Assembly: GCA_031265435.1 (NCBI GenBank)
Contig: JAISCR010000087.1
Location: 1 to 34,072, forward strand
DNA from: Treponema sp.
GTDB taxonomy: Bacteria; Spirochaetota; Spirochaetia; Treponematales; Breznakiellaceae
DNA length: 34,072 nucleotides
Reading direction: 5' to 3'
Part shown: in pieces, positions 24,185-32,025 of the stretch
How positions within the stretch are numbered: the first letter of the stretch is position 1
Layout of the letters: every line of letters begins with the position of its first letter
Notes under the pieces: generated by a model
Database searches by the model: none
Told to the model about the DNA's origin: nothing
The model's input: only the letters and a program-made list of their open reading frames with translations
Position numbers and translations under genes: made by a program

Positions 24185-24198
24185 ATATATCCACTTGT

Positions 24199-24227
24199 TT
24201 GACAGATTCTCCATTTTGGTCTATACT
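24199..24227 (+). promoter_or_regulatory. Strong sigma-70-type promoter of the AraC-family gene
   Basis: A perfect TTGACA (24199-24204), a 17-nt spacer and TATACT (24222-24227). Transcription should start near 24234, ruling out start codons upstream of that point for the regulator. Confidence 0.8.
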
Positions 24228-24274
24228 TGTGGTATACGTTTATACAGGACGCTTCACGTAAAGGAATTTCCGCT

Positions 24275-25229
24275 ATGGAAAAACGAAAGTTTTCTTCTGT
24301 ATTATCCCCCCCCCCCCCCGTGTATAGCTGCAAAACAAATAGTAAGCAATAAGCCTTATTATTTCAGGACAAAACTTAATCCTGTTTTTCCCTTCTATCT
24401 CTGGAATGACGTGTGGGATTCAAATAGTTCAGGCCATCCTCTGCACTGGCAGAAATATCTGGAAGTATTTCATATTGTAAAAGGGAAGGCTGATATATCC
24501 ATAAACGGGAAAATATATAGCCTTAAAGACGGCGATATAGCGGTTATCAATCCTGAAGTAATACACGGTTATGTTAACCAATCAGGCCATACCCATCATA
24601 TTGTATTTCTTTTCAGTATTGATTTATTTAACCAGTCCCTGTTTGAACTCAGGGATAAAGACAGTCAGACGATGATTTTTTCCCGCAAGACATTGATCAC
24701 CGCCGAAACCGATGGTGAACTCCACCGGCGTATGGCACATATAATATCGCAGATCAGCAGAGAATATCTTGCCATGAATGAGGGCTACAGGCTGGCAATA
24801 AGAAAGTATCTTTATGAAATGGCATTGCTGTATCTCCGTGAGATTCCACCTGTAAAAAGCAGGCCAAACAAGGCGGCAAAAGAATATTCCAATTTTCCCT
24901 CCTTCGAACGGACGCTGTCCTTTATTCATAAAAATTTTAAAACTCCCGGCATAACCCTTGAAGACGCCGCCGCGGCCGCCTCTTTAAGCAAATTTTATTT
25001 TTCCCGTCTTTTTAGAGATCGTACCGGAGAGACATTTCATGCATACCTGACGAGGCTGCGGGTCATGCAGGCCCGGGAATACTTATCCGGCTCGGATATA
25101 CCCATCACCGACATTGTTTATAAATGCGGTTTTGCCAGTCAGCAGACATTCAACCGTCAATTTTACGCCTATACCGGCGCCTCCCCTTCCTCTTACCGTT
25201 CCGGAACCCGTGTTCGCAAACAGGTCTGA
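24275..25229 (+). CDS. AraC-family regulator, out of frame at a poly-C tract (possible phase-variable gene)
   Basis: The body is an AraC/XylS regulator: a cupin-like N-terminal sensing half (HWQKYLEVFHIVKGKAD, then the GDIAVINPEVIHG stretch) and a C-terminal double helix-turn-helix (TLEDAAAAASLSKFYFSRLF and ITDIVYKCGFASQQTFNRQF). The body's frame has no ATG between the promoter start near 24234 and the conserved region. The only good start is ATG 24275, 8 nt after AAAGGAA, and from it the frame passes through 14 cytosines and ends after 25 codons. Deleting one C or adding two puts the ATG in frame with the body. So the gene is either switched off by tract length or the tract is misread. If intact, it should control the adjoining UroD/ABC operon. 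Confidence 0.8.
24306..24319 (+). repeat. Poly-C tract (C14) at the start of the AraC-family gene
   Basis: Fourteen consecutive cytosines lie 31 nt after the ATG at 24275. In the frame from that ATG, 14 or 15 C lead to early stops; 13 or 16 C open the full regulator. Confidence 0.9.
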
Positions 25230-25369
25230 TAATTTCTCTTCGCGGTAAATTTTTTCTTCAAAACATGCTGCTTTTAGAGCAATTTTTGGGTAATACTCAG
25301 CAAAAAGCAGTTAGCCAAATTTCCCCAGTCCCTGATAAAATAATAACCAATTGTGGGTAAGGATGAAAA

Positions 25370-26470
25370 ATGGATGTATCTGTCAAATGGACCGGCAAAT
25401 ATAAGCATAATTGGGAGGAAGCTTGTAAGTACCTGACGGCATGGTGGAATTGTGAAGAAACCGACAGGCCCCTGATTTTCAATCCGGTTCCGAAGCCGCC
25501 TGAGGAAAGGAAAGGGCGCCTCATAAGCCCAAAAAATCCTTCCGAAGCCGCCTGTTTTGATCTGGATGCCGATATAAGGCTGAACAATACCAGGTACAAT
25601 TTTGAAAACAATTTATACCTTGCCGAAGCTGTGCCCGGCGCATTCTGTAATTTCGCCAGTCTTTTGGGGATGCTCTGTGTCCAGGCGGGTGGCAAGATCG
25701 ATTACGCTCCCGATACATTTACCGCCTGGCTGGAAGAGGAAGACGACTTGTTCGATCTCCCTCTTCCTGAACCAGCTTCCCCATGCAGGGAATTGAAGTT
25801 TGCAATCGACATGATCCACCGTAACCATGAGGCCTTTGGCTATGACGCCGTGTTGGGCGCTAATCCCATGCTGGATCCAATGACTACCCTTTCACTGATG
25901 CGGGGTTCTTCAAATTTTTTAATGGATTTAATCGAACGTGAAGAAGATGTACTGCGCTGGCTCAAGCGTCTTGGAGAATTTCATTCCCAGGCTGTTGTTT
26001 CCTACCGTGAGGCAAGGGCTGTCCATGATCGCAGAGAAGAGTATAACTGGACAGGCGCCTGGGCGCCGGGCGACATGGATGCTATTCAGTGCGACGTATG
26101 CACCATGCTTTCTCCCGAAATGTTCAGAAAATTTGCAATGCCCGAGATGGAAAAAGAAGCGGCTTTTTTTGACTATACGATATGGCATCTGGACGGATCG
26201 GACGAATTTAAGCATATAGATGATATTTGCGGTATTCCGAATCTCCATGCAATTCAGTATGTTGACGAAAAAGGAAGGGATATCAGCTGCTTTTCTGACA
26301 TATGGAAAAAAATAACCGGGAAAGGCAAGAGCCTGTTATTCCATACCAAATCCGAATATGCCTTATCTTTGACAAAACTGCTTGGGTGTAAAGGCCTGTC
26401 TTTCTATCTTATGGATATTGATACCGAAGAAAAGATGCTTCAGTTTCTTGAAAAGTTGAAAGAAAACTGA
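25370..26470 (+). CDS. UroD-like (uroporphyrinogen decarboxylase superfamily) protein 1
   Basis: This 366-residue protein resembles the UroD/methyltransferase superfamily (PF01208) in its C-terminal half: QCDVCTMLSPEMFRKFAMPEM (about 240-260) is the characteristic segment in which a substrate-binding region precedes the helix, and IWHLDG (271-276) corresponds to the H-x-(D/C)-G site. Superfamily members include haem-pathway decarboxylases and corrinoid-dependent methyltransferases such as MtaA. It is not a classic HemE, lacking the usual N-terminal RP(x)W-type signature. It starts with AAGGATG upstream and heads an operon with a sugar-type ABC importer. A role in demethylating or processing the imported compound is plausible but unproven. 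No corrinoid protein is adjacent. Confidence 0.78.
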   Translation: MDVSVKWTGKYKHNWEEACKYLTAWWNCEETDRPLIFNPVPKPPEERKGRLISPKNPSEAACFDLDADIRLNNTRYNFENNLYLAEAVPGAFCNFASLLGMLCVQAGGKIDYAPDTFTAWLEEEDDLFDLPLPEPASPCRELKFAIDMIHRNHEAFGYDAVLGANPMLDPMTTLSLMRGSSNFLMDLIEREEDVLRWLKRLGEFHSQAVVSYREARAVHDRREEYNWTGAWAPGDMDAIQCDVCTMLSPEMFRKFAMPEMEKEAAFFDYTIWHLDGSDEFKHIDDICGIPNLHAIQYVDEKGRDISCFSDIWKKITGKGKSLLFHTKSEYALSLTKLLGCKGLSFYLMDIDTEEKMLQFLEKLKEN

Positions 26471-26507: not shown

Positions 26508-26530
26508 ATAAATTTGTTTTGGAGGTTTCT

Positions 26531-27817
26531 ATGAAAAGTTTTCTGGTTTCTATTCTTGTTCTTGCTTTGGCTCTGCTGGGGTGCAAAGCAAAGGAAGGAG
26601 TGGCTTCCGCCGCTGCCTCCCCTGACGAAAAGGTAACCCTTGCCGTCTGGAATTTTACCAATGAGTTTGAATACGGTATGTTGGATCTCTACAAGGAGGC
26701 TCATCCCAACATAACAATAGAACATACATTGGTTCAGGAAAGCGCCGGGTATGTAAACAAGCTTGTGTCCGCCTTAACCTCGGGTCAGGGAGCGCCCGAT
26801 TGTTTTGCCCTGAATGTGAACTATACACGCCAGTTTGTTGAATCGGGTCAGGTATTGGATCTTACCGATATTTACAATTTATATAAGGATGCGCTTGTAC
26901 CATATCAGGTGGAAATTGGCAGCGATAACGGTAAAGTCTATGCCCTTTCATGGCAGGCCACTCCCGGCGCTTTCTACTACCGCCGAAGCCTGGCAAAAAA
27001 ATATCTGGGTACCGATGACCCGGCTCAAATTCAAACATATCTTTCCGATATGAATAAATTCATGGATACGGCCAAGACGCTCCATGATAAATCCGGCGGA
27101 AGCTGTGTGATTGTGCCCACATTTACGGGACTATTGGATGCCTATACCCCCAATCGTAAACAGCCCTGGGTGGTTGATGGCTCCCTGGTAATAGATCCCA
27201 TCCTTCTTGATTATATGGATGTATCCAGAACCATACGCGAAAAAGGCTACGACGCCCGTTTGGGCGGCTGGTCGGAAGGCTGGTTTAACGGCATGAAAGG
27301 CATCCTGAAAGATGAAAACGGAAATACAATCGATGTATTTGGATATTTCCTTCCCACCTGGGGCATAAGCTATGTATTCAAGACCAATGCGATGGAAACT
27401 TCAGGCGACTGGGCCATCGCTCCCGGCCCCATGTATCATTATAACGGCGGTACATATATCGCTGCCTACAAAGGAACCAAACATCCCGCGGAAGCAAAAG
27501 AATTTATCCGCTATATGACCGCCGATGACGATTTCCTGGAAGCCTGGGCCATAAAGCGCGGGGATTTGACTTCCAACAACAGGGTCAATGCCAAGGTAAA
27601 GGATCAGTTTTCCGATCCGTATGTGGGCGGTCAAAACCATTGGGCTCTGTTTTCGGAACTTGCTCCTTTTGTGAACGGTAAACTTGTTCAGGGCACGGAT
27701 GACGCAATAAATGCCATTTTCAATGAAGCCGTAACGGCCTATGCCAATAATGAAAAATCAAAAGAGAAGGCATTGGCTGATTTTAAAGATCAGGTTGCAA
27801 GCGAAATGGGATTTTAG
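26531..27817 (+). CDS. ABC importer substrate-binding lipoprotein (carbohydrate type)
   Basis: This 428-residue protein has a signal sequence with lipobox ALLG-Cys18 and the fold signatures of family 1 solute-binding proteins (AVWNFTNEFEYGMLDLYKEAHP, then GQGAPDCFALN, and a late YIAAYKGTKHPAEAKEFI segment). It should sit outside the inner membrane, lipid-anchored, and capture a sugar or glycoside for the two permeases downstream. The ATG at 26531 with GGAGG 5 nt away is preferred to a TTG at 26519. Hairpins flank the gene on both sides (26486-26507 and 27832-27901), which would let the binding protein be made in excess over the permeases, as is usual in such operons. Confidence 0.92.
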   Translation: MKSFLVSILVLALALLGCKAKEGVASAAASPDEKVTLAVWNFTNEFEYGMLDLYKEAHPNITIEHTLVQESAGYVNKLVSALTSGQGAPDCFALNVNYTRQFVESGQVLDLTDIYNLYKDALVPYQVEIGSDNGKVYALSWQATPGAFYYRRSLAKKYLGTDDPAQIQTYLSDMNKFMDTAKTLHDKSGGSCVIVPTFTGLLDAYTPNRKQPWVVDGSLVIDPILLDYMDVSRTIREKGYDARLGGWSEGWFNGMKGILKDENGNTIDVFGYFLPTWGISYVFKTNAMETSGDWAIAPGPMYHYNGGTYIAAYKGTKHPAEAKEFIRYMTADDDFLEAWAIKRGDLTSNNRVNAKVKDQFSDPYVGGQNHWALFSELAPFVNGKLVQGTDDAINAIFNEAVTAYANNEKSKEKALADFKDQVASEMGF

Positions 27818-27901: not shown

Positions 27902-28861
27902 ATGCATAAGGCCGGCTATCAGGCAAGATTACAAAAATGGGGGTATATATTCTGTCTACCCTTTGTAACAGGTTTTATATTTTTCTTTCTGTGGCCGACT
28001 TTGTATACTGTTATTTTAAGCTTTGCGGATTTAAAGGGAATGCGGACTGATTTTAAACTTGTAGGCCTTAAAAATTTTGCAAAACTGGCCGGAGATAAAT
28101 TTTTCTGGGGTTCTGTCGGCAACACATTTATTATTTCAGGTGTTTCGATCATTTTCCAGATATGTGTTGCCCTCCTCCTGGCGATACTGCTTTCAGACAG
28201 TTATTTGAACCTGAAAGGAAGGGGATTGTTCCGGGCTCTGGTATATATGCCCAATCTGCTCACCGCAGTATCCATTTCACTTTTATTTTTAACACTTTTT
28301 CAGTATCCCACCGGGCCTCTGTCTCAAATCCTGTACAGAATGGGTTTACGTGTTTTGGTAGAACGGAACGGGGTGTCAAACTACGAGATGATGGATCTTT
28401 TCAGAAATGTTCTGTTTACAAGGGGGATAATTTCTTTTATTTTCTGGCTTATGTGGTATGGGTACCACCTTATTATTTTAATGGCGGGAATTACCGCAAT
28501 ACCGGTTTCCCTGTTTGAATCGGCACTGGTAGACGGCGCTTCGAGCCGTCAGACAACATGGTTTATTACATTGCCTTTATTAAGACCCGTTTTGCTGTAT
28601 GTGTTTCTTACCTGCATGATAGGCGGTATAAACGCCTTTGATATTCCCGCCATGCTTACCAACATGAGGGGGAATCCCGATTTTAAGGCGCGGACGACAA
28701 TAATGTATCTGTATAATGTTGCGTTTCAGGGATCAAATGATTATTCTTACGGAGCCGCTATCGCAATAGGGCTGTTTCTGATAACAATCGTTTTTGCCCT
28801 GTTCATTTTCTTTTTTCTCCATGACAGAAGTGACTTGAAAAAAGCCGAAGGGGCGATCTGA
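27902..28861 (+). CDS. ABC sugar-type permease, first subunit
   Basis: This 319-residue protein has six expected membrane helices, with the family's permease motif near residue 210 (SLFESALVDGASSRQTTWFI), matching the EAA loop that docks the ATPase. Its N-terminal helix (FCLPFVTGFIFFFLWPTLY) is typical of the MalF/UgpA class. The stop codon TGA overlaps the next gene's ATG by one base (28861), so both permeases are translationally coupled. There is no ATPase gene in the operon; a shared multi-sugar ATPase (MsmK-like) elsewhere in the genome is the usual solution. Confidence 0.93.
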   Translation: MHKAGYQARLQKWGYIFCLPFVTGFIFFFLWPTLYTVILSFADLKGMRTDFKLVGLKNFAKLAGDKFFWGSVGNTFIISGVSIIFQICVALLLAILLSDSYLNLKGRGLFRALVYMPNLLTAVSISLLFLTLFQYPTGPLSQILYRMGLRVLVERNGVSNYEMMDLFRNVLFTRGIISFIFWLMWYGYHLIILMAGITAIPVSLFESALVDGASSRQTTWFITLPLLRPVLLYVFLTCMIGGINAFDIPAMLTNMRGNPDFKARTTIMYLYNVAFQGSNDYSYGAAIAIGLFLITIVFALFIFFFLHDRSDLKKAEGAI

Positions 28862-29703
28862 TGATAAAAGGCATATTGTATATCAATGCCAAACGGTTTG
28901 TCGTATATATTTTTATGACATTCCTGGCAATTCTGGCAATTATACCTGTCTATATAATGATTATTAACGCCACAAGATCAACAATGGAAATTAATGCGGG
29001 GATTTCCCTCCTGCCCGGTAAACACCTGCTTTCAAACTGGAAATTTCTGACACGTTTTGATGTACCGTTTTACAAGGGCTTTTTTAACAGTGTAATTATT
29101 TCTCTGGGTTCTACCGTTTTGGCAGTTTATTTTAATTCAATGACGGCATACGGGCTTCATGTATACGCTTTTAAAGGCCGCCGGGTACTTTGGAGTATTA
29201 TTCTTATTGTTATGATGCTCCCGGGATCTTTGTCGTTCATCGGCTTTTATCAGTTTATGGCCCGCCTGAAGCTGCTTGATTCCTACATACCTTTGATAGT
29301 TCCGTCAATATCCATGGCTACCATGGTTTTGTTCCTGCGGCAATACATGAGTTCCGTAATATCCCAGGATATTATCGATGCGGCCCGCGTAGACGGCGCC
29401 GGAGAATTTTATATTTTTAACCGTATTATTCTGTTTTTATTAAAGCCTGCTCTCGCGGCACAGGCCATTTTTACCTTTGTAGCCTCATGGAATAATTTCT
29501 TTACCCCCTTTCTGTTATTGACTTCAATGAAAAAATATACCCTTCCAATGTTTGTGGTACTCCTGCGGGGAGATATTTACAAGACTGAACTGGGAGGTAT
29601 TTACCTTGGAATCGCGTTTTCCATAGTGCCAATCATGATCTTCTATGCGTTTATGTCCCGGTATATACTGTCGGGTGTTACTATGGGCAGCCTGAAAGAG
29701 TAG
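28861..29703 (+). CDS. ABC sugar-type permease, second subunit
   Basis: This 280-residue protein belongs to the MalG/UgpE class of permeases. Six hydrophobic segments are evident, and the EAA loop reads DIIDAARVDGAGEFYIFNRI at about residue 172-191. It forms the translocation pore with the preceding subunit, to which it is coupled by the TGATG overlap. A 64-nt gap separates it from the second UroD-like gene, which continues the operon. The frame and length are normal for the family, and no defects are visible. Confidence 0.93.
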   Translation: MIKGILYINAKRFVVYIFMTFLAILAIIPVYIMIINATRSTMEINAGISLLPGKHLLSNWKFLTRFDVPFYKGFFNSVIISLGSTVLAVYFNSMTAYGLHVYAFKGRRVLWSIILIVMMLPGSLSFIGFYQFMARLKLLDSYIPLIVPSISMATMVLFLRQYMSSVISQDIIDAARVDGAGEFYIFNRIILFLLKPALAAQAIFTFVASWNNFFTPFLLLTSMKKYTLPMFVVLLRGDIYKTELGGIYLGIAFSIVPIMIFYAFMSRYILSGVTMGSLKE

Positions 29704-29767: not shown

Positions 29768-31096
29768 ATGATTGCCGCAAAAGATAAAAACATCATCCGG
29801 GAATTGGCGAAACGGGTTGCCGAACTGGCAGCGCTGCCGGTAAACAGGGAGCGCGAACAACGCATCAGGGCCAACAACAGCCTCAAGCCGGGACGGCCCA
29901 TTGTATGGATTGATGAAATCCCCTGGCACGAAATGGATATTGATAACGAGCTTGTCTTGCAATGCCTGTCACCGGAAGCCCAGGCAATGGAAGCTTATCT
30001 CCGGCAGGTTCTTTACCGGTGGAATCATATACAGGCGGACATGGTAGTAGAAGATGTTTTTTATGTCGGCAAGGCTTATGATACCACTCTTGATTCTTCA
30101 AACCCCTATTCCGCATCCGCCGCCAGGCCGGAGGAAAGCCTCTGGTTAAGGAGATGGGCGGCTTACGGTACCCTGTTTGGAATATCGGGTGTACAGGTAA
30201 AAGAAGAGACGCTTTCCACAAACAGGGATAACCATATTGTATCCCACCATTATGAAGATCAGCTTGATACGGAAGACAAACTTGAAAAATTAAAAATCCC
30301 CACAATTACCGCAAGGCCCGATATAGATGAAAGAAATCTTGCTCTGGCAAACGATGTTTTTGACGGTATCATGCCGGTTAAACTGCGTGGACATCAAATC
30401 TACTATGCGCCCTGGGACGAGATTGCCATGTTGCGCGGAGTAACCAACTGTTACATGGACATGGCATGCCGTCCGGAATTTACCCATAGCATTATTTCAC
30501 GGTTTACCGGTATCTATGTGTCTACCTACGAACAGATGGAGGCCCAGGGACTTCTGGATTTTAATCTGCCCAATCTTCACAGTACGCCGTCATACACCGC
30601 CGAACTCCCCGCAAAAGACTTTGACGGAAAGATACGGTTTAAAGATATCTGGTTCCGCGGAATGGCCCAGCTTTTCGCGTCGACTTCCCCTGAAATGCAG
30701 GATGAATTCGACCTTCAGTATATGCGTAAGCTGATGGAACGCTGCGGACTTGCCTACTATGGTTGCTGCGAGCCCCTGGACAAGTTCATCCCCTGCCTGA
30801 AAAAAATTCCCAACATGAGAAAAATCGGAGTCAGCCCCTGGGCGGATGTCCGTTCCTCGGCGGAGCAGATCGGCGGAAACTATATCGTTGCCCGTAAACC
30901 GAATCCCGCCAACGTTGGACGAAATTTTGACCGGGAAACCGTGGAAAAAGAAACAGCCGAAACCATTGAAGCCTGCCGCGAAAATCAATGTCCTTACGAG
31001 TTTGTTCTGAAGGACATCAGTACGGTAAACAATAATCCCGAAAACCTTATCGAATGGACAAAGACGGTAATGGGTGTTATTGACAGATACTACTGA
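29768..31096 (+). CDS. UroD-like protein 2
   Basis: This 442-residue protein appears to be a distant UroD-superfamily member: FRGMAQLFASTSPEMQDEFDLQYMRKLMERCGL (about 297-328) followed by YYGCCEPLDKFIPCL (331-345) resembles the helix and Cys/His-bearing strand of UroD-like methyltransferases, with a metal site suggested by Cys333 and Cys334. It is longer than the first UroD-like gene and not closely similar to it. The start at 29768 follows AAAGGAG. Being the last gene after the permeases, it should act on the imported substrate. Its 3' end is repeated 998 bp downstream, past the MNT/HEPN pair. The function is not known; naming it a methyltransferase would be a guess. Confidence 0.75.
   Translation: MIAAKDKNIIRELAKRVAELAALPVNREREQRIRANNSLKPGRPIVWIDEIPWHEMDIDNELVLQCLSPEAQAMEAYLRQVLYRWNHIQADMVVEDVFYVGKAYDTTLDSSNPYSASAARPEESLWLRRWAAYGTLFGISGVQVKEETLSTNRDNHIVSHHYEDQLDTEDKLEKLKIPTITARPDIDERNLALANDVFDGIMPVKLRGHQIYYAPWDEIAMLRGVTNCYMDMACRPEFTHSIISRFTGIYVSTYEQMEAQGLLDFNLPNLHSTPSYTAELPAKDFDGKIRFKDIWFRGMAQLFASTSPEMQDEFDLQYMRKLMERCGLAYYGCCEPLDKFIPCLKKIPNMRKIGVSPWADVRSSAEQIGGNYIVARKPNPANVGRNFDRETVEKETAETIEACRENQCPYEFVLKDISTVNNNPENLIEWTKTVMGVIDRYY
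31056..31094 (+). repeat. 39-bp direct repeat, left copy (3' end of UroD-like gene 2)
   Basis: This 39-bp segment, the last codons of the UroD-like gene, recurs at 32054-32092 with 35 of 39 positions identical and in the same orientation. The pair brackets the MNT/HEPN genes. Confidence 0.85.
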
Positions 31097-31298: not shown

Positions 31299-31634
31299 TT
31301 GCAAAATGACCTATCCAAAATAAAAAAAGAGCTTGACGCCATAACGAAATCCGTAGTTGAAAACATTCCCGTAGAAGAAATATATCTTTTTGGTTCCTTT
31401 GCCTATGGAATGCCGGGAAAAGATTCTGATATTGATTTATATTTGGTGTTCAAAGACGACATGCAAATACGGGAATATGAAGCTTTGGCAATGGCCCGCA
31501 AGGTTATGTTTGGTATACAGAACAGATCCATCGATCTTTTAGGACAAAAAAAACAAAAATTCCTCTATCGTTCAACCGGATTTGCAACCATCGAAAAAGA
31601 AGTTCTCCAAAAAGGTGTTAAACTCTATGGATAG
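31299..31634 (+). CDS. MNT-type minimal nucleotidyltransferase antitoxin
   Basis: This 111-residue protein has the minimal nucleotidyltransferase signature GSFAYG (32-37) followed by DSDIDLYLV (42-50), whose aspartates bind magnesium. In the HEPN/MNT (type VII) toxin-antitoxin systems this protein neutralises its partner by adding AMP residues to it. The start is TTG 31299, supported by AGGGAGAG 8 nt upstream; there is no alternative ATG in frame nearby. Its stop (31632-31634) overlaps the HEPN gene's start (31627) by 8 nt, typical of coupled pairs. It lies in an AT-rich patch unlike the genes to the left, consistent with acquisition. Confidence 0.88.
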   Translation: MQNDLSKIKKELDAITKSVVENIPVEEIYLFGSFAYGMPGKDSDIDLYLVFKDDMQIREYEALAMARKVMFGIQNRSIDLLGQKKQKFLYRSTGFATIEKEVLQKGVKLYG

Positions 31635-32025
31635 AATGGCGGAAGCGAAAGAATGGTTTGATATTGCTGATGGCGACCTTAGATCGGCAGAGCATCTTAT
31701 GACATTGCATTATCCAAGACCGGACAATGTCATCTGCAATTTATGCCAGCAAGCTGCTGAAAAATATATTAAGGGGTTTCTTGTTTATAAAGAAATTGAA
31801 TTCAGGAAAATTCATGATCTTGTCGCGCTGTTGGAATTGTCAAAAACAAATAATGTGGATATTTCAGTGTTGCTTGATAAGTGCGCCTTTTTGTTCCAGT
31901 ATGCGGTAGAACCTCGTTATCCCAACCGGCATGAATATACGGAAGAAGAAGTTAAAACAGCTATTCAATATGCCAAAGACATACACGTCTTTATAAAAAA
32001 AGTAATGGAAGATAATACCGGATAA
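31627..32025 (+). CDS. HEPN domain RNase toxin
   Basis: This 132-residue helical protein matches the HEPN family (PF05168): CNLCQQAAEKYIKGFLVYK (38-56), KIHDLVALLE (61-70) and the catalytic R-x4-H motif, Arg97 to His102 (RYPNRH). HEPN toxins cleave RNA, often tRNA, and are held in check by the neighbouring MNT protein through AMPylation. The motif is intact, so the toxin should be active. The ATG at 31627 overlaps the MNT stop and gives the family's usual length; the longer start at 31582 would sit inside the MNT gene and is rejected. Direct repeats flank the pair. Confidence 0.88.
   Translation: MDRMAEAKEWFDIADGDLRSAEHLMTLHYPRPDNVICNLCQQAAEKYIKGFLVYKEIEFRKIHDLVALLELSKTNNVDISVLLDKCAFLFQYAVEPRYPNRHEYTEEEVKTAIQYAKDIHVFIKKVMEDNTG

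Follow-up and report, generated by a model that had tools for sequence, protein, structure and literature searches.

The DNA analysed here, hereafter the window, is one entire contig of 34,072 nt from a Treponema sp. genome of 3.67 Mb in 206 contigs (84% complete). On its forward strand, positions 24321-25229 hold the intact body (302 codons) of an AraC-family regulator with a cupin-type N-terminal domain and a double helix-turn-helix, as judged by Pfam and by alignment. The Pfam matches are HTH_18 (2.6e-23), HTH_AraC (6.8e-19) and AraC_binding (1.1e-11), the last starting at residue 34. The double helix-turn-helix of the C-terminal domain (HTH_18), together with an AraC-type ligand domain, places the protein in the AraC/XylS family, and the conserved AraC residues are present in an alignment with its homologues.

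The genes that follow on the same strand had been labelled a UroD/ABC operon in the original prediction. The ABC part of this label stands, with a solute-binding protein at 26519-27817 (SBP_bac_8, 3.9e-21) and two permeases at 27902-28861 and 28861-29703 (BPD_transp_1, 5.1e-13 and 8.2e-9, respectively). The UroD part is reduced to a URO-D-like protein at 25370-26470, for which the match to Pfam URO-D is sub-threshold (19.1 bits against a curated cut-off of 23.9). The last gene of the putative operon, at 29768-31096, encodes a protein of no known family, with zero matches to Pfam families or solved structures; a structure predicted for it without an alignment was discarded (pLDDT 33). Between the AraC gene and the next gene, no terminator-like site was found. 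The weak promoter-like site at 25312-25341 of the forward strand (TAGCCA-18-TAAAAT, 9/12 matches, with TG before the second hexamer) is of a kind no commoner than in shuffled sequences, and no convincing AraC-type binding repeats were recognised 5' of the operon. From their adjacency, we infer that the regulator controls these genes. Further along the window, at 31299-32025, two small overlapping genes resemble by eye a nucleotidyltransferase (MNT) and HEPN toxin-antitoxin pair.

The layout predicted for the start of the AraC gene was confirmed. On the forward strand, a promoter-like site at 24199-24227, composed of TTGACA (24199-24204), a 17-nt spacer and TATACT (24222-24227), has 11 of 12 matches and is the top such site of the region; the ribosome-binding site AAAGGA (24260-24265) follows, with 9 nt of spacing to ATG 24275. 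The frame opened by this ATG (24275-24352) runs into a tract read as T-C14-G, the C14 occupying 24306-24319, and at this assembled length it is terminated after 25 codons by the TAA at 24350-24352 (the OFF state). The ATG frame enters the tract as T/CC and the AraC body leaves it as CC/G (the slash marks the edge of the tract), so the length of the tract must be 1 mod 3 for the two to be joined. Indeed, 13 or 16 C join them and 14 or 15 C do not, as had been claimed. The body frame is already open from TTG 24195, ahead of where any transcript driven by the promoter at 24199-24227 could begin. From the tract onward, the body frame has no ATG, GTG or TTG until the GTG at 24411-24413, and this GTG sits behind F23 and P24, the first two invariant residues of the homologue alignment. 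A long repeat that stands between a good start codon and a gene body, and whose length sets the frame, is the arrangement of translational phase variation.

The tract is also far longer than composition predicts, another mark of phase variation. Under Markov models of order 2 to 5 derived from the window, runs of at least 14 C are expected 1.2e-4 to 2.2e-4 times per window, both strands included. For the whole genome the expectation is 0.013 C/G runs of at least 14 nt on both strands, against at least 22 observed inside contigs, a count limited to runs flanked on both sides by 110 nt or more. Runs of at least 10 nt number about 61 by one count. Two positions dominate: between start codon and gene body, and intergenic. 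In the intergenic runs, the C-bearing strand is usually the one that encodes the next gene downstream, whose start lies some 40-300 nt further on; this gene often encodes a lipoprotein or a binding protein.

Runs placed like the AraC tract, between start codon and body, recur elsewhere in the genome: in the genes of four solute-binding proteins and two permeases of ABC type, in two lipoprotein genes, and probably in the gene of another AraC regulator. The full succession of start codon with Shine-Dalgarno sequence, run and body was recognised at the seven of these for which the frame is given below, the AraC regulator again as a probable case. Among the binding proteins, an SBP_5 protein on contig C21 (G10) is in frame; a protein on contig C45 (C20), an SBP_5 protein on contig C53 (G13) and a protein on contig C164 (G14, 26 nt from the contig end) are out of frame. 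One permease (contig C47, C14) is in frame, and the start-to-body run of the other lies at the end of contig C100. For the lipoproteins, the run on contig C85 (G15) puts the body out of frame, and a second run lies between start codon and body on the contig labelled C14. The second AraC regulator (contig C193, C16), a probable case, is in frame if started at TTG 522 of stretch L102. Three of the eight judgeable loci, this AraC gene included, are thus in frame, as would be expected if lengths were random. Solute-binding proteins, with 68 matches in the genome, account for four of about ten start-gating runs, which is far above chance by an estimate (about 4e-5) that assumes some 3,300 genes and includes no linker-matched control; Gly-rich linkers may be more tolerant of G runs than other sites. 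In addition, C/G runs were seen at the extreme C-terminus of two AraC-type regulators, one of them a response regulator (L103, 3000-3013; L272, end of contig C155), where a change of length would alter the last residues and would not switch the gene off.

The length of 14 C comes from one short-read assembly. In this genome and in its relatives, C/G runs at contig ends nearly always read G outward, which we take as strand-biased sequencing failure inside real runs. Exact lengths are therefore unreliable, and the assembled C14 may be off by a base. At the contig ends of G000, G014 and G007 the runs are as long as 73 nt, and some include GC junk. A two-colour poly-G artefact was rejected as the whole explanation for internal runs, since unique sequence resumes on both sides of them. 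It is also countered by the closed genomes of the family that carry runs and by G007, which is attributed to a study on HiSeq2500/4000, four-colour instruments (PMC9137090).

Long runs are widespread among the relatives. The number of runs of at least 11 nt per genome ranged from 0 to 140 in 24 other genomes of the family (f1), and from 0 to 8 in 15 genomes from other families of the order. The family includes three single-contig genomes, in which runs of at least 10 nt number 6, 4 and 0, so the runs are not solely an artefact of metagenome assembly. From isolate names and the literature, we infer that the run-bearing family is the termite-gut Breznakiellaceae (PMC9137090, PMC13067680). The AraC regulator itself has no close orthologue in the relatives: the best homologue is 46% identical, and no run was found at the gene start in the 27 best homologous AraC loci from other genomes of the family. 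An apparently split-frame AraC homologue in G017 (contig C255) likewise has no long run.

Run length was compared at the linkers of binding proteins, where it differs among orthologues. Behind its signal peptide, a binding protein of G007 carries G16. Within the genus, orthologues 97% alike show GGGGGCTGGAGGT, AAGGGACT (short Gly codons), or G18 with GC junk; in the orthologues of other genera the site holds G16, G26 with junk, or no run. Similarly, the binding protein on contig C53 has G13 and its 96% orthologue has no run. The AraC gene has no orthologue suited to such a comparison.

Not every run is a switch, as many in the family are intergenic or, in G015, lie in repeats. G015 has the most of any genome, 135 runs of at least 12 C in 2.5 Mb; among the internal runs examined there, no more than one or two were candidates for start-gating, and these were weak. 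Run abundance alone does not prove switching. Several of the G015 runs (L273-L302) adjoin a repeated sequence, gctgggaggcc..ggcctcccagacccaccaaaag, and a stretch of G007 (L175, contig C9, 3000-7200) has three C/G runs spaced 844 nt in repeated DNA. Of 88 runs taken from seven genomes (G000, G004, G007, G014, G023, G157 and G050) and read with C on top, 44 are directly preceded by TA, mostly as TTA, ATA or CTA. This context, which often resembles a -10 box at its end, is a family-wide signature of the intergenic runs, which perhaps lie at the start of transcription. An intergenic element, C(n)-GATAGGWWTASYAGGATATA, is conserved across several genera with differing run lengths (L075, L098, L144, L178 and 12 stretches, L213-L224), and was matched only in records named as Treponema sp. 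MAGs and in one Spirochaetia bacterium. Finally, the single-contig genome G050 has, at about 1498-1510 of L143, TTGACA-atagcac-G13-TATAAT, in which the G run lies within a 20-nt promoter spacer; in its layout this would be a candidate phase-variable promoter.

The presence of such runs throughout the genome and the family, several of them at gene starts, makes phase variation much likelier than it would be from one odd tract. The C14 tract is probably a slipped-strand phase-variation switch of the AraC regulator, belonging to a multi-locus set concerned with nutrient uptake. The promoter at 24199-24227 would drive the gene, and ATG 24275 would serve as the translation start at every run length. 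Hypermutability of the tract through slipped-strand mispairing, the simplest account of the frame change, would then decide the product: the complete regulator with 13 or 16 C (ON), only a 25-residue peptide with 14 C, and a 17-residue peptide with 15 C (OFF). The regulator would most likely activate the adjacent genes for the URO-D-like protein, the ABC binding protein and the two permeases, so that a population would be mixed, with the uptake system on in some cells and off in others. The switch would be a member of a set that affects ABC binding proteins, permeases, lipoproteins and AraC regulators. The original prediction is partly supported: gating of the frame and the phase-variation reading fit all the sequence evidence, including the runs across genome and family, and control of the operon by the regulator is a suggestion from gene order.

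The main alternative, which we regard as unlikely, is that the tract is real and the assembled length is wrong or a minority one, the gene normally being in frame (C13 or C16) after near-neutral expansion in an unconserved N-terminal extension of a high-slippage lineage. The extension is indeed unconserved in the homologue alignment, runs are widespread in the family, intergenic regions and repeats included, and short-read assemblies break or yield junk at such runs. However, a coding C14 should be lost if frameshifts were merely harmful, and the start-gating runs cluster in genes for transport and regulation. It is more doubtful still that translation of the body is initiated 3' of the tract, with GTG 24411 as its start or by ribosomes that reinitiate once the 25-codon peptide has been made, run length then tuning expression or leaving it unaffected. 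This GTG is in frame, has GGAA upstream, and precedes the part of the body matched by AraC_binding, but a product started there would lack the invariant F23 and P24, ahead of which the homologues start, and the site at ATG 24275 is far better.

Long homopolymers are known slippage sites. Slippage of RNA polymerase or ribosome on C14 would give a fixed in-frame fraction in every cell, with expression lowered and not switched, and the frame geometry is equally compatible with it. We consider this very improbable, since lengths differ in the DNA at orthologous runs, which means that the DNA itself changes. That the gene is decaying and frozen in the OFF frame, as its assembled state and the lack of close orthologues in relatives might suggest, is hardly credible for a stop-free body of 302 codons with conserved residues, strong AraC domain scores, and a consensus promoter and ribosome site still in place.

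Beyond the phase-variation switch proposed for this gene, we tentatively suggest that termite-gut spirochaetes of the Breznakiellaceae type may have multi-locus poly-C/G phasomes aimed at nutrient uptake and its regulators, phase-variable AraC activators included, which would amount to a large phasome serving metabolic bet-hedging in a non-pathogenic insect symbiont. If true, this would suggest phase variation as metabolic bet-hedging and not as immune evasion. The mechanism is known; the host lineage, the class of targets and the scale appear to be unreported in the literature searched, where we found no paper on long C/G runs gating uptake proteins or AraC regulators family-wide in termite-gut spirochaetes.

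The tpr tracts of Treponema pallidum are mainly promoter-proximal and tune the transcription of outer membrane proteins, whereas the tract described here lies within the coding start of a regulator. Shared features are the order and the G/C homopolymers; their length varies in T. pallidum, at tpr and at further poly-G tracts (PMC7864442, PMC3656149), and in the present family at the linkers of binding proteins. Homopolymer length also affects regulator genes in Streptococcus pyogenes, namely Spy1337 and mga. The first of these we take to be of the AraC family. The Spy1336/R28-Spy1337 tract (PMC7098570) is an intergenic T run, while that described here is a coding C run, and the organisms are unrelated. 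The mga change, from 8C to 7C, concerns a short run, with reversion reportedly seen solely in animals (described in PMC11868660), as opposed to the C14 found here. Homopolymers gate translation by phase variation at the poly-G tracts of Neisseria HmbR/HpuAB (PMC3786947), and whole phasomes are described in Neisseria, Campylobacter and Helicobacter (PMC5084427, PMC6321876, PMC2823697). In these three genera, as here, a long C/G run near the gene start sets the frame by its length, at many genes per genome. However, they are mammalian pathogens or commensals, and ours is a spirochaete of the termite-gut type, in which the candidate switches would target proteins of ABC uptake systems along with AraC regulators.
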